Program-made: the position numbers and the translations under genes
DNA from: Lichina pygmaea
Lineage: Eukaryota > Ascomycota > Lichinomycetes > Lichinales > Lichinaceae
Assembly: GCA_963422465.1 (NCBI GenBank)
Contig: OY730170.1
Location: 434,001 to 498,000, forward strand
DNA length: 64,000 bases
Direction: 5' to 3'
Shown here: positions 3,010 through 57,172 of the stretch, piece by piece
Numbering within the stretch: the first letter of the stretch is position 1
Layout of the letters: the number at the start of each line of letters is the position of its first letter
The notes under the pieces: model-generated
Told to the model about the DNA's origin: nothing
The model's database searches: none
The model's input: only the letters and a program-made list of their open reading frames with translations

Positions 3010-3510
3010 ATGTCTCCAAAGTCATGTGTGACTGTTAGCTGAACTCAGCTTGCTGCTCAAATCTGCGATCAGGATTTTGTTTCACGTACACCCTGCAATT
3101 TTTGTGTTTTCCGTGGTCGTCCGTGCTTCCAGATGCCAGGAGAAGACAATAAGTTAAAATGTACTGTGTGCACTCAGTGCGGGAGGTCTTGTGTCTCTGT
3201 GTCCTGGGAATCTCTGAACATATCCTGGGACAACCTTTGTGAGGATGTGGCCACTGAAGAGGTAACACATGATGCACTTTTTGAACAGCTTGCTGTGGTG
3301 CAAGTTTGTCTGTCTCAGAAGTGAAAGATGTTGGAAGGTGCTGAGGTCTGTGCAAGGCAGAAGCTTCAGTGTCTGGTGAAAGAGATGGAGTCAGATGGCA
3401 AGGATTTGACTTGATCAGTCATTGATGTGTCCTTTCTGCAGGCCAAGCTGTTCAGTCCTGCTTCTGCTAAAACTGTCGCAGAAGAAGCTGGCAGTTCACG
3501 AGGTTCTTGA
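3010..3510 (+). pseudogene. A1 antisense Zn2Cys6 gene (fossil)
   Basis: Start and end align with the 501-nt antisense gene of A3 (33622-34122) and A4 (7503-8003). The central part still encodes ...NKLKCTVC...GRSCVSVSWESLN. Broken in this copy. Confidence 0.75.
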
Positions 3511-7502: not shown

Positions 7503-8003
7503 ATGTCTGCAAAATCACGTGCCTCTGCTTACCAAAACCAACTGGCAGCCCAGATCTGTGATCATAACTTCGTGTCACTTGCTCTGTGTGACTTCTGTGT
7601 TTTGAACCACAAGCCCTGCTTCCGAATGTCTGACGACAACAATAAGTTGAAGTGCGCTGAGTGCACTTGTCGGGGAAAGTCCTGTGTATCACTTTCTTGG
7701 GAGTCGCTGAACATGACTCGGGATAACCTTCGCGAGGATTTGGCTGTTGATGAGGCCAAGCGGGATGCTCTTGTCGAGCAGCTTGCCGAGCTGCAGGCTT
7801 GTGTGTCCCGAAAGCGAAAGGTTCTTGAGGGTGCTGAGGGTCAAGCAAAGAAGAAGCTCCAATGCCTTGTTGCTGAAATGGAGGCGGATGGTGAAGACTT
7901 GTCGGCGACAGTCATTGATGCGTCTGCGCTGCAGGCTGAGCTGTTCAGTCCTGCTCCTGCCGGAACTGCTGCAGGAGGAGCTGGCAGTTCGCGAGGTTCC
8001 TGA
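7503..8003 (+). CDS. A4 antisense gene: Zn2Cys6 cluster plus coiled-coil protein, 166 aa
   Basis: Open from ATG 7503 to TGA 8003. The ATG at 7503 is chosen because it matches the start in A3 and gives the same length. Six cysteines follow the pattern CX2CX6CX11CX2CX6C (CDFC...KPC, KCAEC...GKSC; about residues 29-61), which fits the fungal Zn(II)2Cys6 binuclear cluster (CX2CX6CX5-12CX2CX6-8C). A Leu/Glu/Arg/Lys-rich stretch (about residues 70-130, EQLAELQACVSRKRKVLEG) looks like a coiled coil, and the C-terminus is Ala/Gly/Ser-rich. The family's clusters bind DNA; that role is inferred here. The gene runs opposite to gag-pol, starts 45 bp from the LTR and overlaps the end of pol. Looks whole. 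Confidence 0.8.
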   Translation: MSAKSRASAYQNQLAAQICDHNFVSLALCDFCVLNHKPCFRMSDDNNKLKCAECTCRGKSCVSLSWESLNMTRDNLREDLAVDEAKRDALVEQLAELQACVSRKRKVLEGAEGQAKKKLQCLVAEMEADGEDLSATVIDASALQAELFSPAPAGTAAGGAGSSRGS

Positions 8004-15654: not shown

Positions 15655-16116
15655 TGTTAAGGCCTAGGCCGGAACAGCCCAGGTAAGCGAGGGAGGAGTG
15701 TTAGTCATGCGGAACAACATCCGACTGATCTGGTGGACAAGCAGGAGCTAAGCAAGGAGCTTGTCCAGTGGACAAGCAGGAGCTAAGCGAGGAGCTCGTC
15801 CGGTGGACAAGCAGGAGCTAAGCGAGGAGCTTGTCCGGTGGACAAGCAGAAGCTAAGTGAGGAGCTTGTCCACGCAAAAGGATGATACCCCTCAAGGAGG
15901 CCCCCCCCCTTGGGGCATCTGTATAAAGACCCTCCAAAGAGTCTGGAGGGATTAGCTCTCCAGGCTGAACACACAATACAAACCCATCATACTGAGACAA
16001 TAGCACAGGAGAGTTACCTCATCTGTCTATTCCTCTACAGAGTCCCTGTCTAGAATCTGCCCTGCGAAGCAACAGACTGAGCCACCTTCTGTGTGAACCC
16101 GGCCTAGCCTTTAACA
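15655..16116 (+). repeat. B1 5' LTR
   Basis: 462 bp, TGTTAA...TTAACA (6-bp inverted ends). It holds four 35-bp repeats (15732-15872), TATAAA at 15922-15927 and AGGCTGAA at 15962-15969. Confidence 0.95.
15732..15872. repeat. 35-bp tandem repeats in U3 of the B LTR
   Basis: Four units, each with GGACAAGC and GCTTGTCC arms, so each unit and each unit junction can fold. Three units occur in the B1 3' LTR (21588-21692), four in the B2 5' LTR (39088-39227) and seven in the B2 3' LTR (44943-45187). Confidence 0.9.
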
Positions 16117-21449: not shown

Positions 21450-21510
21450 GACAAAAGAGGAGCAGGAACAAAAAGGATCTGGGGACAGAACCCTTGAAGG
21501 GAGGGGATAG

Positions 21511-21937
21511 TGTTAAGGCCTAGGCCGGAACAGCCCAGGTAAGTGAGGGAGGAGTGTTAGTCATGCAGAACAACATCTGACTGATCCGGTGGACAAGCAG
21601 GAGCTAAGCAAGGAGCTTGTCCGGTGGACAAGCAGGAGCTAAGCAAGGAGCTTGTCCGGTGGACAAGCAGGAGCTAAGCAAGAAGCTCGTCCACGCAAAA
21701 GGATGATACCCCTCAAGGAGACCCCCCCCCTTGGGGCATCTGTATAAAGACCCCCCAAAGGGCCCGGAGGGATTAGCTCTCCAGGCTGAACACACAATAC
21801 AAACCTATCGTACTGAGACAATAGCACAGGAGAGTTACCCTATCTGTCTATTCCTCTACTGAGTCCCTGTCTAGAATCTGCCCTGCGAAGCAACAGACTG
21901 AGCTGCTTTCTGTGTGAACCTGGCCCGGCCTTTAACA
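21511..21937 (+). repeat. B1 3' LTR
   Basis: 427 bp, with three 35-bp repeats (21588-21692) against four in the 5' LTR. A purine-rich tract (21497-21510) precedes it. Confidence 0.95.
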
Positions 21938-28195: not shown

Positions 28196-28321
28196 TGTTA
28201 CGACCCAGGAGGAACACAGTCTTTATATACTCACAGAAAGCAGCAGACAGGATACTGGACAGAAGTACCAGACAGCATGACACGGGAACCAGTCACGTGA
28301 CCGGCGAGACAAACCAGGGGG

Positions 28322-28567
28322 TGCTCGCCGCAGCATGCATATGCACAAACAAGTGAGCAAAGTGAGCAGAGCTCACCCAGCTCGCCGCAGCGTGCATGAA
28401 AAGTGAGCAAAGTGAGCAGAGCTCACTTATCTCGCCGCAGCGTGCATGAAAAGTGAGCAAAGTGAGCAGAGCTCACCCAGCTCACTGCAGCGTGCATGAA
28501 AAGTGAGCAAAGTGAGCAGAGCTCACTTATCTCACCGAGTGAGCAAAGTGAGCAGAGCTCACTCTGC
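28322..28567. repeat. About 50-bp tandem repeats in U3 of the beta LTR
   Basis: Units contain GTGAGCAAAGTGAGCAGAGC followed by TCAC, so GTGAGC and GCTCAC form inverted arms within each unit. The array is shorter in the 3' LTR (34321-34505) and nearly absent in A1. Confidence 0.85.
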
Positions 28568-28582
28568 TCACGAACTGGGCAC

Positions 28583-28588
28583 TATATA
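28583..28588 (+). promoter_or_regulatory. TATA box for gag-pol in A3 5' LTR
   Basis: TATATA within CTATATAG, the one block of the LTR that is shared closely by alpha and beta types. Confidence 0.65.
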
Positions 28589-28826
28589 GCCAGGCAATAG
28601 TTCCCCTATGGAACGATCGTCTTCAACTCATGTTGTGATCCAGACAACTAGATCTACTTCAATACAATCCTTTGTACGAAGCCATTGATCAGGTGTCACC
28701 ACCACCACGTTCCACCAAACCCCTTCGCACTCCTTGACACTCCTCTCCTGCGAGAACCAACCCGCCTTCCGCCTCTCGCCCTAATCCTATACTCGGATAG
28801 GACAGTACGGTACGGACCGCAACACT

Positions 28827-28842: not shown

Positions 28843-30342
28843 ATGAGTACCTCAGGAGCAACCAACCCCAACTTCCCAGATGGAAAGATTAGCGTCGCCA
28901 AGCCAGACCTGTTCTACGGTGAAAGAAACAAGGTTGACGACTGGCTCATGCAACTCCAAGTCTACTTTCAATTCCAACCAGAGACAAAGCTGCCTAAGGA
29001 AAAGTGGCCACTCTTTGCAACCACTTACATGAGAGGCAATGCTTATCGATGGATCAAACCCTACGTCAACAAACACCTCTCAGGGAACGGAGACCACGAC
29101 GGCACATCAGAATGGATGACGAAATGGACGCAATTCAAGGACGAGATCAAAAGGATCCTTGGACCATCTAACGAAGACAAAGTGGCTATACGAATGATCC
29201 AGCACATCAAACAACAACGCTCAGCCGCAGAGTACACCACGCAGTTCAAACAATACTCAGTACTGACTGACTGGGACGACGACGCCCTGATGGTCATGTA
29301 CCGACGTGGACTCAAGGAAAACGTGAAGGATGAGATCACCTTCGACGGATGAGCGGTCGACACACTGGACGAGCTCATCGCACAAGCAATCAACATCGAT
29401 GACAAACTATTCGAGTGAGTGATGGAGAAACGCCACGACGGAGGATACAGCCACCCCGCATGGCATGTGAGCAACCACTACAAGCCGCCTAACAAGGCAC
29501 CACCACATGATCCATATGGCTATGCACCCATGGAACTGGATGCAGTCCACCACAAGGGAAGGTTCACAAAGGGAAGGAACAACAAAAAGGGGAAAGCACT
29601 GAAGTGCTATGCCTGTGGCAAGCTAGGCCACATGGCGAAAGACTGTCGTACAAAGAACAAGGTGCACCGACAGCAACTTAATACGCTCGACGGAGACTGG
29701 AATGTCATCGAGCCAGAGGACCCACCAGGAGAGGCTCAGCTATCCCTCGAACAATGGGACGACTACGATCAGATATTGGAAGCAGCCCACCAACTGGCAA
29801 CATCAGGAGGCAAGGACCTACCAGAACTAACAGGTCAGGACAAGGGACAGGAGCCCTTAACCACCTCTGATGGGGACCGAGACAAACCCGCGTCTATCAA
29901 AGAAGAAATACCACGAGGAAGCTATGCTTACAGCATGGACCCACGAAATCTACGGCACGGCGAACTACAGTGGAGGTTTTGCACGAAGCACTACTGCACC
30001 TACCACGAACAACTACGAAGGTACGGAGGACATTCACCCTACCACACCACCTGCCACAAGCATTGGGTCAATTGCGAGAAGGATGTGTGTGAGATCCATC
30101 TTTGGGACAAACGCCAACACACCGCATTCCCCGGGCACACACATGATTGGCACGAACGCCTCATGTTCCTACAGCAAGGCAACAACTACAACTGCTACGT
30201 CGACAATTGGCAGTACTGCCTCAAGCCTGGATGTGACAAGCATCAGCAAGACAAATTCATGAACAGATTCCTCAGAACTGATGGGAATGGCTGGACCCAT
30301 TGCCCAGTCAGTGGTAAGACACTTCGATCGGGAAAAGACTGA
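28843..30342 (+). pseudogene. A3 gag (fossil)
   Basis: Structural protein of the particle. Starts MSTSGATNPNFPDG, 18 bp after the LTR. The gag domain runs from about residue 20 to 165 (FYGERNKVDDWLMQLQVYF at its start). A Lys-rich stretch and the knuckle CYACGKLGHMAKDC lie near 29604-29646, followed by an acidic segment and a region rich in His and Cys (CTKHYCTYHEQL) that is unusual for gag and could bind metal. Broken. Confidence 0.9.
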
Positions 30343-30380
30343 ACTCCCTTGTCAAGGGGTGACATCGGGAGCTCAACAAC

Positions 30381-30960
30381 ATGACCCCTAGCAACGCAAA
30401 GCACCTGCGATTGCCTGTGTCACTATACGCCAACACGCCGATACGGACATACGCACTTGTTGACTCTGGAGCCAGTGGGAACTACATTTCAAGACAACTT
30501 TACGATACCCTCGGCACTGGAAGGAGACGCAAGCAGCAGCCCTATCAGCTCGTGATAGCAAATGGACAGACAGAGCTAGTCTGCCATGAGACGCAGCCAA
30601 TGGAAATGGTTACCGGACACCATGCTGAAAGGATCCACCTTGATATCGTCAAGTTGGCCACTCAGGATATCTACTTGGGGATGCCTTGGCTAAAGAAGCA
30701 CAACCCAGTTGTTAACTGGAAGACAGGAGTACTCACGTTTAGGAACTGCACTAACAACGCAGCTCGGACCTGTTACCAGCCGCAGAAGGTGTGGACAGAT
30801 GAGGGAAGGAGTCCTCAGTGGAACCTCACCGACAGAAAGGACGACTCTCAAGAGAAGAGGTCTGCCTTGACAGGCACACCCCGGAACCAGGTGGCCAAAC
30901 AGTCAGAGATGAAGAGAGAGGAAGTTGTTAACCCTCTGGAGATCCCTGAAGAGTACTGAC
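30381..30960 (+). pseudogene. A3 protease (fossil)
   Basis: Aspartic protease that cuts the polyprotein. YALVDSGASGNYISRQL carries the active-site DSGA; the second lobe ends IYLGMPWLKKHNPVVNW. A basic linker then leads to RT. Confidence 0.9.
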
Positions 30961-31790
30961 CTGGGTATGATAACCTCTTTCAGGAAGAGACAACAACAGC
31001 AGCGTTGCCTAAGCACCAACCTTGGGATCATGAGATCAAGTTGCAACCAGGGATGGAGCCAGGATTTGGACCAATTTACCAGTTATCAGAGAAAGAGCTC
31101 CAAGTACTTCGCGAGTACCTGGAGGAAAACCTGAAAAAGGGTTTCATTCGAGAATCTCAATCGCCAGCAGGATACCCGATACTATTTGCACCAAAGAAAG
31201 ACGGAAGTCTTCGACTTTGTGTGGACTACAGGAAACTCAACAACATTACCATCAAGAACTGATATCCGTTGCCAAATGCGAACGAATTGCGAGACAGGAT
31301 CAGCCAAGCTACAATCTTTACCAAGCTGGACTTGAAAGGAGCATACAACCTGATACGCATGAAAAAAGGAGAAGAATGGAAGACAGCCTTCAGAACCCGA
31401 TACGGACACTACGAGTATCTGGTTATGCCATTCGGACTCACAAACGCACCAGCAACATGTCAAGCATTGATCAACAATGTCATCAGAGCACACCTGGACC
31501 AAACAGCTATCGCCTACCTGGACGACATTCTTGTCTACTCGAACACGCAACAGGAACATACCAAACATGTGAAGGATGTTCTACGATGCCTACAAGAGGC
31601 AGGGCTCAAGCTCAACCCAAAGAAATGCGAGTTCAACAAACCAGAAGTTGAATTCCTCGGATACATCATAGGGATCGAAGGGATCAAGATTGACCCTGAG
31701 AAAATCAAAGCGATTCAGCAATGGCCAACACCGACATCAGTTAAGGAAGTACAAGCCTTCCTGGGATTTGCCAACTTCAACTGACAGTTC
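30961..31790 (+). pseudogene. A3 reverse transcriptase (fossil)
   Basis: Copies element RNA to DNA. Blocks in order: [63 protein letters not shown] and the catalytic AYLDDILVYS near 31511-31540. Broken. Confidence 0.92.
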
Positions 31791-32300
31791 ATCAAGAACT
31801 ACTCACAGATGGCAACTCCACTGACAGAACTCACGAAGAAGGACGTGGAGTACCGGTGGACGGAGAGACAACAAAAAGCATTCCAACAGCTCAAGGACGC
31901 TTGCGCCAAGGAACCAGTTCTCCTCAACTTCAAGACAGGCCAACCGACACAAATCGAGACAGACGCTTCAGATCAAGCAGTGGGAGCATGTCTATACCAA
32001 CAGGCAGACGGCAAGTGGCACCCAGTTGCCTACTACTCACGAAAGATGACACAAGCGGAACGAAACTATGATATCCACGATAAAGAGCTACTGGCAGTCG
32101 TCAACGCACTCGAACACTGGAGAGTGTACGCGGAAAGCAGTTCCGAACTCACTATTCTCACAGACCACAAGAATCTGACAACGTTCACGACAACCAAGAA
32201 GCTGAACAGACGGCAAGTCAGATGGGCTGAACTCCTAGGGCAACACAAGTTCAAGATCTTGTACACCCCTGGATGAGATAATAGGAGAGCAGACGCACTA
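31791..32300 (+). pseudogene. A3 RNase H (fossil)
   Basis: Carries ETDASDQAVGACLYQQ, the [19 protein letters not shown] block and TDHKNLTTF, the usual Ty3 RNase H layout, then FKILYTPG toward integrase. Confidence 0.9.
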
Positions 32301-33530
32301 AGCCGACAAAAAGACCACATGGAAGATGATGAACGCCAAGGAACGATCTTACAGCAGGACCAGCAAGGAAACCTGGTGCCCCAGCCACAGATCAACAAGC
32401 TCACGGCAGAAGACACTGAAGAACTAATAAGGAACTACCACGACAATCCAGCACATAGTCACCCAGGAATCTCCAAAACTACAGACCTTATCCAACGGGC
32501 AGGGAACAATGTCATTAACCTCTGACAACATGTCACAAACTACATCAGCAAGTGTCTACTATGCCAGAAAAACAAATATGGGAGACACAAGCCATACGGA
32601 GAAGGACACCCGAACACGATACCGAGAGGCCTGTGGGAAGACGTGTCAATGGACTTTATCACAAAGCTACCCAAGTCCAAAGACCCAGTCACAGGAATCA
32701 CCTACGACTCAATTATGGTGATAGTGGACAGATTCACAAAATATCTAATAGTGGTACCATTCAAGGAGACCCACACAGCAGAACAATTGGGACACCTCTT
32801 ACTGGACAGATTGGTCAGAGACCACAGAGTTCTGATCATGATCATTACAGACAGAGATAAACTCTTCACATCCAACTACTGGAAGACAATCAGTGCAGCC
32901 ATGGGAACAAAACCCAAAATGTCTACGGTCTATCACCCACGAACTGACGGCCAGACGGAGTGAGCGAACCAAGTCCTGGAGACTTACTTACGGCATTACA
33001 TCAACAAGACCCACAGTAATTGGGTACAGTTATTACCGGTGGCACAGCTGGCAATCAACCAGCACAGATCAGACTCAACAAAGGAATCGCCATTTTTTGC
33101 CAATTTTGGACAACATGCAAACATCGGGATGCCAAGCAGAGCTTCACCAAACGCGGAGAAAGCACTCCAACACGACAAGCTCCTACGACAAACACACACG
33201 ATGATGAGGCACTACCTTCAAGAGACCTCAGAAAGAATACAACACCAAATGGACAAGAAATCGAAAATGGCACCTCAGCTAAAGAAGGGGGATAAAGTCT
33301 ACCTCCTCACAAGAAATTGGAAAACAAAGAAACCAAGAACAAAGAAACTGGACTATGTTAAGGTCAGACCATTTTCAGTCAAAGAAAGAACTGGACCAGT
33401 CAACGTCAGACTGCGACTACCAAGGGATGCCAGAGTCCACCCAAACTTTCATATATCAATGATTGAACCAGCCGACCAGAGCACACCCTTGCAGGAAACA
33501 TTCCATTACCAACCCGAAGAAGAACAAGAG
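32301..33530 (+). pseudogene. A3 integrase (fossil)
   Basis: Inserts the DNA copy. HHCC region 32319-32580 (HPGISKTTDLI, CLLCQ). The core at 32643-32963 has MDFITKLPKSKD with VDRFTKY, ITDRDKLFTSNYW and YHPRTDGQTE. The C-terminal domain includes [20 protein letters not shown]. Broken. Confidence 0.9.
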
Positions 33531-33680
33531 TTTGAGGTTGAACAGATCCTGGCTAGGAAAGGTCAGCAATACCTCGTCAAGTGGAAAGGATACCCAGACT
33601 CAGAAAATACCTGGGAACCACTCAAGAACCTCGTGAACTGCCAGCTTCTTCTGCGACAGTTTTGGCAGGAGCAGGACTGA
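33520..33680 (+). pseudogene. A3 chromodomain, beta type (end of pol)
   Basis: [20 protein letters not shown] and [11 protein letters not shown] match the chromodomain fold with the aromatic-rich KWKGY block. Chromoviral chromodomains bind methylated histone H3 and direct insertion to heterochromatin. The last 59 bp of pol overlap the antisense gene. Confidence 0.85.
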
Positions 33681-34122
33681 ACAGCTCAGCCTGCAGGAGG
33701 GACGCGTCAATGACTGATCGAGTCAAATCCTCGCCATCTGACTCCATCTCTTTCACCAAGCACTGAAGCTTCTGCCTTGCACGGACCTCGGCGCCCTCCA
33801 ACACCTTTCGCTTCCGAGACAGACGAGCCTGCACTGTGGCAAGTTGTTCAAAGAGTGCATCACGTGTTGCCTCGTCAGCGGCAACATCCTCACGGAGGTT
33901 GTCCCGGGACATGTTCAAAGATTCCCAGGACACAGAGACACAAGACCTTCCATGCCGAGTGCACGCAGCACATTTCAACTTATCGTCTTCTCCCGGCATC
34001 TGGAAGCACGGACGACCACGGAGAACACAAAAGTCGCAGGGCGTACGCGAAACAAAACCCTGATCGCAGATTTGAGCAGCCAGCTGAGTTCGGCTAACAG
34101 TCGCACGTGACTTTGGAGGCAT
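33622..34122 (-). CDS. A3 antisense gene: Zn2Cys6 cluster plus coiled-coil protein, 166 aa
   Basis: Open from ATG (34122) to a stop at 33622 on the minus strand, opposite to gag-pol. Cysteines 29, 32, 39, 51, 54 and 61 fit CX2CX6CX11CX2CX6C, the fungal Zn2Cys6 cluster, with an Arg-containing loop (VLRGRP). A Leu/Glu/Arg-rich segment about 70-125 (LATVQARLSRKRKVLEGAE) suggests a dimerizing coiled coil; the C-terminus is short and Gly/Ser-rich. Versus A4, differences in the VSVSWESLN...RDNLRED region are mostly at third codon positions, so the protein has been conserved. Its start lies 43 bp from the 3' LTR, which carries a TATA box pointing at it. It may regulate the LTR or host genes; that is inference. 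Confidence 0.82.
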   Translation of the reverse strand: MPPKSRATVSRTQLAAQICDQGFVSRTPCDFCVLRGRPCFQMPGEDDKLKCAACTRHGRSCVSVSWESLNMSRDNLREDVAADEATRDALFEQLATVQARLSRKRKVLEGAEVRARQKLQCLVKEMESDGEDLTRSVIDASLLQAELFSPAPAKTVAEEAGSSRGS

Positions 34123-34165: not shown

Positions 34166-34758
34166 TGTTACGACCCAGGAGGAACACGGTCTTTATATAC
34201 TCACAGAAAGCAGCAGACAGGATACTGGACAGAAGTACCAGACAGCATGACACGGGAACCAGTCACGTGACCGGCGAGACAAACCAGGGGGTGCTCGCCG
34301 CAGCATGCATATGCACGAACAAGTGAGCAAAGTGAGCAGAGCTCACCCAGCTCGCCGCAGCGTGCATGAAAAGTGAGCAAAGTGAGCAGAGCTCACTTAT
34401 CTCGCCGCAGCGTGCATGAAAAGTGAGCAAAGTGAGCAGAGCTCACCCAGCTCACTGCAGCGTGCATGAAAAGTGAGCAAAGTGAGCAGAGCTCACTCTG
34501 CTCACGAACTGGGCACTATATAGCCAGGCGATAGTTCCCCTATGGAACGATCGTCTTCAACTCATGTTGTGATCCAGACAACTAGATCTACTTCAATACA
34601 ATCCTTTGTACGAAGCCATTGATCAGGTGTCACCACCACCACGTTCCACCAAACCCCTTCGCACTCCTTGACACTCCTCTCCTGCGAGAACCAACCCGCC
34701 TTCCGCCTCTTGCCCTAATCCTATACTCGGATAGGACGGTACGGTACAGACCGCAACA
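34166..34758 (+). repeat. A3 3' LTR (beta type)
   Basis: 593 bp, 36 bp shorter than the 5' LTR in the tandem array. Confidence 0.95.
34192..34199 (-). promoter_or_regulatory. TATA box for the antisense gene in the beta LTR
   Basis: On the minus strand TATATAAA lies 77 bp before the antisense ATG (34122). The spacing matches the alpha LTR (79 bp), although the surrounding U3 sequence is different. Confidence 0.65.
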
Positions 34759-36900: not shown

Positions 36901-38275
36901 CTGACGAAAAGACCACATGGAAGATGATGAACACCAAGGAACAATCTTACAGCAGGACCAGCAAGGAAACCTGGTGCCTCAGCCACAGATCAACAAGCTC
37001 ACAGCAGAAGACACTGAAGAACTAATAAGGAACTACCACGACAATCCAGCACATGGTCACCCAGGAATCTCCAAGACCACAGACCTTATCTAACAGGCAG
37101 GGAACAATGTCATTAACCTCCAACATGTCACAAACTACATCAGCAAGTGTCTACTATGCCAGAAAAACAAACATGGAAGACATAAGCTATACGGAGAAGG
37201 ACACCCGAACACAATACCGAAAGGCCTGTGGGAAGACGTGTCAATGGACTTCATCACAAAGCTACCCAAGTCCAAAGACCCAGTCACAGGAATCACCTAC
37301 AACTTGATTATGGTGATAGTGGACAGATTCACAAAATATCTAATAGCGGTACTATTCAAGGAAACCCACACAGCAGAACAGTTGGGACACCTCTTACTGG
37401 ACAGATTGGTCAGAGACCACAGAGTTCCAATCATGATTATTACAGACAGAGACAAACTCTTCACATCCAACTACTGGAAGACAATCAGTGCAGCCATGGG
37501 AACAAAACCCAAAATGTCTACAGCCTATCACCCACGAACTGACAGCCAGACAGAGTGAGCAAACCAAGTCCTGGAGACTTACTTACAGCATTACATCAAC
37601 AAGACCCACAGCAATTGGGTACAGTTATTACTGGTGGCACAGCTGGCAATCAACCAGCACAGATCAGACTCAACAAAGGAATCACTATTTTTTGCCAATT
37701 TTGGACAACATGCGAACATCAGGATGCCAAGCAGAGCTTCACCAAACACGGAGAAAGCACTCCAACACAACAAGCTCCTACGACAAACACACACAATGAT
37801 GAGCCACTACCTTCAAGAGACCTCAGAAAGAATACAACATCAAATAGACAAGAAATCGAAAATGGCACCTCAGCTAAAGAAGGGGGATAAAGTCTACCTC
37901 CTCACAAGAAATTGGAGAACGAAGAAACCAAGAACAAAGAAACTGGACCATGTTAAGGTCAGACTATTTCCAGTCGAAGAAAAAACTGGACCAGTCAACG
38001 TCAGACTGCGACTACCGAGAGACGCTCGGGTACACCCAAACTTTCACATCTCAATGATTGAATTAGCCAACCAGAGCACACCCTTGCAGGAAACATTTCA
38101 TTACCAACCAGAGGAAGAACAGGAATTCAAGGCCGAACAGATTCTGAAGAGAAAAGGTCAGCGATACGTTGTCAAGTGGAAAAACTACCCAGACTCAGAA
38201 AATACCTGGGAACCACTCAGGAACCTTGTGAACTGCCAGCTCCTCCTGCAGCAGTTCTGGCAGAAGCAGGACTGA
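36901..38275 (+). pseudogene. A2 integrase and alpha chromodomain (fossil)
   Basis: Core in frame 37238-37558 (MDFITKLPKSKDPVTG). C-terminal domain and chromodomain in frame 37634-38275 (EQILKRKGQRYVVKWKNYP), alpha type. Broken. Confidence 0.87.
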
Positions 38276-38717
38276 ACAGCTTGGCCTGCAGTGCGGACAC
38301 ATCAATGACTGTCACCGACAAATCTTCACCATCCACCTCTATTTCAGTAACAAGGCACTGGAGCTTCTTCTTTGCTCAACCCTCAGCACCCTCAAGAACC
38401 TTTCACTTTCAGGACACACAAGCCTGCAGCTCGGTAAGCTGCTCAACAAGAGCATCCCGCTTGGTCTCATCAACAGCCAAATCCTCGCGAAGGTTATCTT
38501 GAGTCATGTTCAACAACTCCCAAGAAAGTGACACACAGGACTTCCCACGACAAGTGCATTCAGCGCACTTCAACTTATCGTTGTCATCAGATATTCGGAA
38601 GCAGGGCTTGTGGTTCAAAACACAGAAGTCACACAGAGTAAGTGACACAAAGTTATGATCACAGATCTGGACTGCCAGTTGGTTTCAGTAAGCAGAGGCA
38701 TGTGATTTTGCAGACAT
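38217..38717 (-). pseudogene. A2 antisense Zn2Cys6 gene (fossil)
   Basis: Occupies the same 501-nt span as in A4. The open part 38409-38648 keeps CDFCVLNHKPCFRISDDN and KCAECTCRGKSC. Broken. Confidence 0.75.
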
Positions 38718-39010: not shown

Positions 39011-39471
39011 TGTTAAGGCCTAGGCCGGAACAGCCCAGGTAAGTGAGGAAGGAGTGTTAGTCATACAGAACAACATCCGACCGGTCCGGTGGACAAGCAG
39101 GAGCTAAGCGAGGAGCTTGTCCGGTGGACAAGCAGGAGCTAAGCGAGGAGCTCGTCCGGTGGACGAGCAGGAGCTAAGTGAGGAGCTTGTCCGGTGGACA
39201 AGCAGGAGCTAAGTGAGGAGCTTGTCCACACAAAAGGATGATACCTCTCAAGGAGACCCCCCCCTTGGGGCATCTGTATAAAGACTCCCCAAAGGGCCCG
39301 GAGGGATTAGCTCTCCAGGCTGAACACACAACACGCACACATCGTACTGAGACAATAGCACAGGAGAGTTACCCCACCTGTCTATTCCTCTACCAAGTCC
39401 CTGTCTAGAATCCACTCTACGAAGCAACAGACTGTACTGGTTTCTGTGTGAACCCGGCCCAGCCTTTAACA
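39011..39471 (+). repeat. B2 5' LTR
   Basis: 461 bp, four 35-bp units (39088-39227), TATAAA 39277-39282, AGGCTGAA 39317-39324. Confidence 0.95.
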
Positions 39472-44865: not shown

Positions 44866-45431
44866 TGTTAAGACCTAGGCCAGAACAGCCCAGGTAAGTG
44901 AGGGAGGAGTGTTAGTCATACAGAACAACATCCGACCAGTCTGGTGGACAAGCAGGAGCTAAGTGAGGAGCTTGTCCAGTGGACAAGCAGGAGCTAAGCG
45001 AGGAGCTCGTCCAGTGGACAAGCAGGAGCTAAGCGAGGAGCTCGTCCAGTGGACGAGCAGGAGCTAAGCGAGGAGCTTGTCCGGTGGACGAGCAGGAGCT
45101 AAGCGAGGAGCTCGTCTGGTGGACAAGCAGGAGCTAAGCGAGGAGCTCATCCGGTGGATGAGCAGGAGCTAAGCGAGGAGCTTGTCCACGCAAAAGGATG
45201 ATACCCCTTGAGGAGACCCCCCCCTTGGGGTATCTGTATAAAGACCCCCCAAAGGGCCTGGAGGGATTAGCTCTCCAGGCTGAACACACAACACGCACAC
45301 ATCGTACTGAGACAATAGCACAGGAGAGTTACCCCACCTGTCTATTCCTCTACCGAGTCCCTGTCTAGAATCCACCCTACGAAGCAACAGACTGTACCGG
45401 TTTCTGTGTGAACCCGGCCCGGCCTTTAACA
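44866..45431 (+). repeat. B2 3' LTR
   Basis: 566 bp with seven 35-bp units (44943-45187), the largest array in the window. Confidence 0.95.
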
Positions 45432-48701: not shown

Positions 48702-49202
48702 ATGTCTGCAAAATCATGTGCCTCTGCTTACTGAAACCAACTGGCAGCCCAGATCCATGATCATAACTTTGTGTTGCTTGCTCTGTGTGACTTCTGTGTT
48801 TTGAACCACAAGCCCTGCTTCTGAATGTCTGATGACAACGATAAGTTGAAGTGCGCTGAATGCACTTATCGTGGGAAGTCCTGTGTGTCACTTTCTTGGG
48901 AGTCGCTGAACATGACTCAGGATAACCTTTGCAAGGATTTGGCTGTTGATGAGGCCAAGCGGGATGCTCTTGTTGAGCAGCCTGCCGAGCTGCAGGCTTG
49001 TGTGTCCTGAAAGCGAAAGGTTCTTGAGGGTGCTGAGAGTTGAGCAAAGAAGAAGCTCCAGTGTCTTGTTGCTGAAATGGAGGTGGATGGTGAAGACTTG
49101 TCGGTGACAGTCATTGACGTGTCCGCGCTGCAGGCCAAGCTGTTCAGTCCTGCTTCTGCTGGAACTGCTGCAGGAGGAGCTGGCAGTTCGCAAGGTTCCT
49201 GA
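48702..49202 (+). pseudogene. A5 antisense Zn2Cys6 gene (fossil)
   Basis: 501-nt span equal to A4's gene; the part 48825-49010 keeps the second half of the cluster and the start of the coiled coil. Broken. Confidence 0.76.
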
Positions 49203-56671: not shown

Positions 56672-57172
56672 ATGTCTGCAAAATCACATACCTCTGCTTA
56701 CTGAAAACAACTGGCAGTCCAGATCTGTGATCATAACTTTGTGTCACTTGCTCTGTGTGATTTCTGTGTTTTGAACCACAAGCCCTGCTTCCAAATGTCT
56801 GACAACAACGATAAGTTGAAGTGCACTGAATACACTTGTTGTGGGAAGTCCTGTGTGTTGCTTTCTTGAGAGTCACTGAACATGACCTGAGATAACCTTC
56901 GTGAGGATTTGGCTGTTAATGAGGCCAAGCGGGATGCTCTTGTTAAGCAGCTTGCCAAGCTGCAGACTTGTGTGTCCTGAAAGTGAAAGGTTCTTGAAGT
57001 TGCTGAGGGTTGAGCAAAGAAGAAGCTCCAGTGCCTTGTTGCTAAAATGAAGGTGGATGGTGAAGACTTGTTGGCGACAGTCATTGACATGTCCGCGCTG
57101 CAGGCTGAGCTGTTCAGTCCTACTTCTGCCAGAACTGCTGCAGGAGGAGCTGGCAGTTTGTGAGGTTCCTGA
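56672..57172 (+). pseudogene. A6 antisense Zn2Cys6 gene (fossil)
   Basis: 501-nt span as in A4, with clear similarity but several breaks. Confidence 0.74.

Follow-up and report, generated by a model that had tools for sequence, protein, structure and literature searches.

A gene named brtn was reportedly described by Zhao et al. in 2011 (Virology 417:248) in the Boty-like elements of Botrytis cinerea. According to the accessible part of PMC7264820, brtn is placed between pol and the 3' LTR, and antisense genes at this position are found in the plant elements Grande, RIRE2 and Retand as well as in fungal Boty; what such genes do in LTR retrotransposons is stated there to be not known. The antisense protein of Grande (gene23) is a nuclear protein expressed from a promoter of its own (PMC7264820, same part), and the antisense TRP28 proteins of Retand probably bind DNA (PMC11963269, 2025, accessible part). 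A zinc cluster is not named for the plant antisense ORFs in the accessible portions of these two papers. The words 'antisense' and 'zinc' are both absent from the available text of 'LTR Retrotransposons in Fungi' (PMC3248453), and the literature searched, most of it outside subscription journals, showed no fungal Ty3 element with an antisense gene of the zinc-cluster kind.

The window considered here, a 64,000-nucleotide stretch of the Lichina pygmaea genome, harbours a gene with the same place and orientation as Grande gene23, RIRE2 and Retand TRP28. A first-pass annotation of this DNA had reported a 166-aa antisense gene between the chromodomain and the 3' LTR of the copy designated A3, and the frame is indeed present and intact (Table 1). 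Its further remark that such a gene is missing from standard Ty3 elements was overstated, as antisense genes at this position have already been described for plant Ty3 elements and for Boty. The A3 gene has the place, orientation, many copies and conserved protein that characterize an aORF-3R. Compared by description only, Boty and A3 are both fungal Ty3 chromoviruses with an extra antisense gene. If BRTN is homologous, the protein family is not new; even then, as far as the papers go, the measured selection, the zinc-cluster assignment and the linkage to U3 would be.

Table 1. Features of A3 and of the antisense gene copies in the window
Feature	Position	Strand	Basis
5' LTR of A3	28196-28824	+	
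A3 gag-pol, reading frame open only piecewise	28843-33680	+	
Likely exchange point, where between-type divergence falls to within-type level	33220-33370	.	
pol chromodomain, on the diverged side of the exchange	33531-33668	+	
Intact 166-aa antisense gene of copy A3	33622-34122	-	ORF, codon-position and random-substitution analyses
Coiled-coil helix (predicted), residues 66-128	33739-33927	-	predicted fold, heptad period
Six-cysteine zinc-cluster-like region, residues 29-61	33940-34038	-	spacing, profile, predicted fold
3' LTR of A3	34166-34758	+	
U3 of A3 type, aligning poorly with A4-type U3	34166-34513	+	
Antisense-strand TATA box, first base 77 before ATG	34190-34199	-	
GTCACGTGAC, common to all three U3 types, 94-99 bases from LTR start	34262-34271	.	
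Candidate operator (conjecture), inverted repeat GGCGAG-N15-CTCGCC in A3	34273-34299	.	
CACTATATAG, likely TATA box of the sense transcript	34514-34523	+	
Same antisense gene, A4 type, 166 aa, intact	7503-8003	+	
A3-type copy of antisense gene, internal stops	3010-3510	+	
A4-type copy of antisense gene, internal stops	38217-38717	-	
A4-type copy of antisense gene, internal stops	48702-49202	+	
A4-type copy of antisense gene, internal stops	56672-57172	+	

The carrying element is a Ty3 chromovirus. It is flanked by a 5-bp target duplication, TCATG, and by two LTRs, and its internal region matches gag, zinc knuckle, protease, RT, RNase H, integrase (just below the Pfam cut-off), SH3_Tf2-1 and Chromo domains. 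The copy is young, since the 5' and 3' LTRs differ at only 6 of 594 aligned bases, all of them at CpG. Despite these near-identical LTRs the gag-pol frame survives only in fragments, unlike the antisense gene, which is complete; gag-pol may have decayed right after insertion, or the copy may have been moved by the proteins of another.

The counterpart claimed in element A4 exists, is likewise exactly 166 aa long and shares 117 of 166 residues (70%) with the A3 protein; the remains claimed in further elements of the window correspond to four more copies, every one with stops. Across the 32.5-Mb genome (8 contigs) a first look gave at least 512 candidates, and all 150 that were scored match the antisense gene. 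The loci compared below are the best-scoring copies among the 150 scored of these candidates and of at least 507 found with the P0006-type query, so they are biased towards well-kept genes. Four of 65 were dropped as duplicates, leaving 61; the A3-type (31) and A4-type (28) counts leave out L063 and L064, which are of a type C and carry an inverted LTR. Intact genes are found in 5/31 A3-type and 8/28 A4-type copies. A stop at codon 135, present in 25 of the 31 A3-type copies examined, leaves most of them with a 134-aa product; this shortened form has apparently multiplied, and the C-terminal 32 residues may be dispensable in the A3 type.

Three loci depart from this pattern. L033 (G000:C1:2424771-2425262) is an intact A-type antisense gene with no recognisable LTR or antisense TATA box upstream, and could be a truncated copy or possibly a gene taken over by the host. 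The type C copies L064 (G000:C7:1388697-1390407) and L063 (G000:C3:4397175-4398763) have an inverted LTR joined at the end of the antisense gene, into which it would read, and a truncated internal region. They were considered as elements using the gene in sense; with one inverted LTR each and a truncated interior this was rejected, and the arrangement looks like autointegration or rearrangement.

The antisense gene is protein-coding and under purifying selection. Between A3 and A4 it differs at 140 of 501 bases, of which 33, 28 and 79 fall at first, second and third antisense codon positions, the third-position excess noticed by the first-pass annotation. In the antisense frame dN/dS (NG86) is far from 1, at 0.15 for the whole gene and 0.10 for codons 1-145, which lie outside pol, and it barely moves once CpG-containing codons are removed (0.14 and 0.11). 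Four of the other frames give 1.0 or more; the fifth, on the sense strand, gives 0.18-0.25 and contains stops, a low value that is the expected shadow of the antisense frame, as their third positions coincide. When the same substitutions were placed at random 5000 times over codons 1-145, the mean number of synonymous codon changes was 18.2 and the maximum 32, against 50 observed, and a stop-free antisense frame was rare (P = 0.0068). All 40 pairs of intact A3-type and A4-type genes have a dN/dS of 0.13-0.18, and the type C gene of L064 gives 0.24 against A3 and 0.11 against A4 (0.16 and 0.12 when codons with a CpG are dropped). Inside each type only a faint signal is left, as copies in decay would lead one to expect: of the non-CpG changes found in at least three copies 12 are synonymous and 9 are not, and of the single ones 24 and 44 (P = 0.064).

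These values bear on the reading in which there is no gene and the frame is open by chance or as a by-product of sense coding. Such a reading can draw on the 3' end, where the final 59 bases overlap the end of pol and codons 135-166 have a dN/dS of 0.53. Over codons 1-145 it is largely refuted by the low ratio and by the stops in the sense-strand frames, and with protein homologues in existence it is scarcely credible for the gene as a whole.

The homologues extend beyond the element family. A first protein search returned 33 matches at E <= 1e-3, and later profile searches at E <= 1 returned 192 (the best 120 listed) and then 98, with identity down to about 28%. The relatives come from ena, jgi, lgn and ncbi records and include members in other assemblies and in metagenomes; one of them (P0130) bears the name Watsoniomyces obsoletus (MAG). 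Some belong to the same fungus or near kin: P0009 is identical to one locus of the source genome. The P0006 type reaches at best 64% there (150 of at least 507 candidates scored). Among IMG/VR viral contigs scanned for relatives with neighbours, 60 pattern matches included no relative. One family member, P0096, is listed with a precomputed domain, PF27583.1, that the Pfam copy used does not report; some of the antisense-protein family may already fall within a more recent Pfam entry.

The annotation had described the product as a Zn2Cys6 protein with a coiled coil. The spacing it gave, CX2CX6CX11CX2CX6C, is confirmed in the 166-aa ORF (C29-X2-C32-X6-C39-X11-C51-X2-C54-X6-C61), and the family alignment keeps the six cysteines. 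Among 38 chosen members, C29, C32 and C39 are kept in all 28 that reach them, C51 in 36/37, and C54, C61, C121 and W66 in 37/37, a conservation that is partly built in, as members were found by profile score. Against 13 host zinc clusters (14 were fetched; L082, with no match to the cysteine pattern, was left out) the family profile scores 27.1, compared with a maximum of 21.7 in 40 shuffles that kept the cysteines fixed. The window protein itself, P0001, matches no Pfam family even at E 10, so that the label 'Zn2Cys6' depends on spacing, family profile and predicted fold. In the wider family 9 of 38 members match Zn_clus (PF00172) at E <= 1, the best at 3.6e-4; P0077 reaches 14.2 bits, below the cut-off of 21. 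A profile of nine near members gave nine matches in the PDB, none of them a zinc cluster. AF2 models built with 9 sequences had pLDDT below 50 over most of the zinc region, and 38 sequences raised it; in a structural second look 7 of the 11 entries listed are zinc-cluster proteins. The coil is consistent with dimerisation, the dimer itself being a prediction: a helix is predicted over residues 66-128, and in the 38-member alignment hydrophobic positions within residues 67-120 recur most strongly with a period of 3.5.

The likeness to GAL4, PUT3 and HAP1 comprises the six-cysteine spacing and, in the predicted fold, a short helix at each CxxC and a coil after the cluster. Unlike in those regulators, the coil begins almost at once after the cluster, most family members fall below or outside Pfam detection, and the basic recognition loop between the second and third cysteines is absent, with a mean of 0.6 K/R in 21 members against 4.3 in the 13 host clusters. 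Profile comparison and the predicted fold together lend weak to moderate support to a GAL4/PUT3/HAP1-like Zn2Cys6 cluster without a basic recognition loop. The cysteine spacing and the predicted coil agree with the Zn_clus type; the Pfam score of the window protein and the loop do not. DNA binding by the protein is uncertain, because the loop that is basic in host zinc clusters is not so in this family. The source genome yields only 27 Zn_clus matches in six frames, which is few for a filamentous ascomycete and, taken by itself, might point to a basidiomycete.

The type of the gene and the type of U3 agree in all 58 typable copies of the 61, the others being L033, which has no LTR, and the two type C copies, whose U3 is distinct. 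In 50-base windows A3 and A4 pol are 92-98% identical over positions 33,000-33,349 and 82-90% from there to 33,699; identity drops to 56-78% in the rest of the gene and mostly 32-74% in U3, and returns to 94-100% in R-U5. Non-CpG divergence between types (31 A3-type and 28 A4-type copies; 200, 200 and 300 pairs sampled) is 0.22-0.32 over antisense bases 1-375, 0.10-0.14 over bases 376-750 and 0.03-0.08 beyond, where divergence within types is 0.04-0.10 (A3) and 0.02-0.06 (A4). Likewise, the gene has an A3-A4 dS of about 1.3, compared with 0.08-0.09 for three pieces of pol, the gapped piece 33351-33620 being left out of the dN/dS analysis. This contrast between gene/U3 and pol is most simply read as at least one exchange between types. 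Reverse transcription copies U3 from the RNA's 3' end and R-U5 from its 5' end; one template switch between pol and the gene would therefore yield the mosaic observed, in which the gene and both U3s would come from one parent, and gag-pol and R-U5 from the other. With L033 left out, the gene tree needs one change of type and the pol tree four (19.7 in shuffles); repeated exchange is unsupported, as the AU test does not reject a single clade (P 0.27). A partial parallel is crapaud of Podospora, a chromodomain element whose subfamilies differ mainly in the U3 before the TATA box (PMC10787394, accessible part); unlike A3, it is shown in the figure legend with two ORFs (gag, pol), and the available text never uses the word 'antisense'.

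The linkage could be mere neighbourhood if the product were not a transcription regulator but a nuclear protein that assists integration or chromatin targeting in partnership with integrase or the chromodomain. The diverged block does take in the chromodomain, and the loop is not basic, both of which suit such a role; a zinc-cluster-like fold with a coil, an architecture known mainly from transcription regulators, and a U3 that matches the gene in every typable copy make it somewhat unlikely. Roles of this kind are discussed for plant antisense genes in the accessible part of PMC7264820.

The LTR carries signals compatible with expression of the gene and with action upon it. Counted from the ATG, the antisense strand has a TATA box at -75 or -77 in 31/31 A3-type copies and at -79 or -80 in 27/28 A4-type copies, and the type C copy L067 has TATAAAAG at -76; the box may belong to a promoter of the antisense gene. 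Its retention in 58 of 59 A3- and A4-type copies would also suit an element for which the antisense RNA matters and not the protein, through double-stranded RNA or interference from 3' LTR transcription, a role that PMC7264820, in the part accessible, raises for plant elements. An RNA role alone needs neither the low dN/dS nor protein-level homologues, and this reading is very unlikely, albeit RNA and protein could both act.

All words of at least 8 bases common to the U3s of A3, A4 and C67 fall in or around GTCACGTGAC. Counting both strands, the three share seven 8-mers (null mean 0.51, maximum 6) and six 9-mers (null mean 0.06, maximum 4). GTCACGTGAC is intact in 54/58 copies, and its CpG has decayed in 2/31 and 2/27, less than other U3 CpGs; the test is one-sided and modest (P 0.044 and 0.0045, or 0.0097 and 0.037 when R-U5 rates are used), excludes L033, and some other U3 CpGs are kept as well. 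The inverted repeat adjoining it reads GTCGAG-N14-CTCGAC in A4 and GTCGAG-N15-CTCGAC in L063 and L064, so that its arms change together between types, while one arm is altered in L067. It is no more than a candidate operator, because the U3 tandem units hold the same half-site.

Taken with the linkage of gene and U3 types, which makes action on the element's own LTR more likely, these features suggest that the antisense gene, expressed from the 3' LTR, encodes a dimeric regulator of the element's own U3, a reading that has about an even chance of being right. The TATA box at the margin of the 3' LTR would drive an antisense mRNA, whose product would dimerise through its coil, enter the nucleus and tune sense transcription by acting on the U3 of its own element type; a first guess at the effect would be copy-number control or repression of like by like. 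One template switch between pol and the gene would equip another gag-pol backbone with a new gene and, in both LTRs, with the U3 that matches it, which is why gene and U3 would move together. HBZ of HTLV-1 is a dimeric bZIP regulator made antisense from the 3' LTR, and the comparison is one of working only: HBZ is not a zinc cluster, and no kinship is claimed. An antisense promoter is described in the HTLV 3' LTR (PMC7264820, accessible part).

Selection on the protein and its long-term keeping would equally fit a host-directed factor that interferes with host silencing or host genes instead of its own LTR; this does not predict that the gene should change together with U3, and is quite unlikely. 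A bolder form of the self-acting regulator is offered tentatively, with doubt outweighing belief: antisense protein and U3 might constitute a swappable self-recognition module, the dimer controlling only LTRs with a matching U3. If so, types that share one gag-pol engine would escape mutual control through a joint change of gene and U3, comparable to the change of repressor and operator in heteroimmune phages. The natural gene/U3 types on similar gag-pol backbones provide matched and mismatched pairs; with the measured selection and an architecture of the DNA-binding kind, they make self-regulation and type specificity directly testable.

Two further observations concern the decay and the surroundings of these copies. 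The antisense genes of the A3-type (31) and A4-type (28) copies decay from C to T almost exclusively at CpG (0.135 and 0.165 per site, compared with 0.006-0.016 elsewhere), a pattern that suggests a methylation-like process rather than classical CpA RIP. A second repeat family is present in the window at 15655-15914, 21476-21770, 39011-39270 and 44866-45230; its copies are offset by 35 bases, and it therefore has a 35-bp tandem unit.
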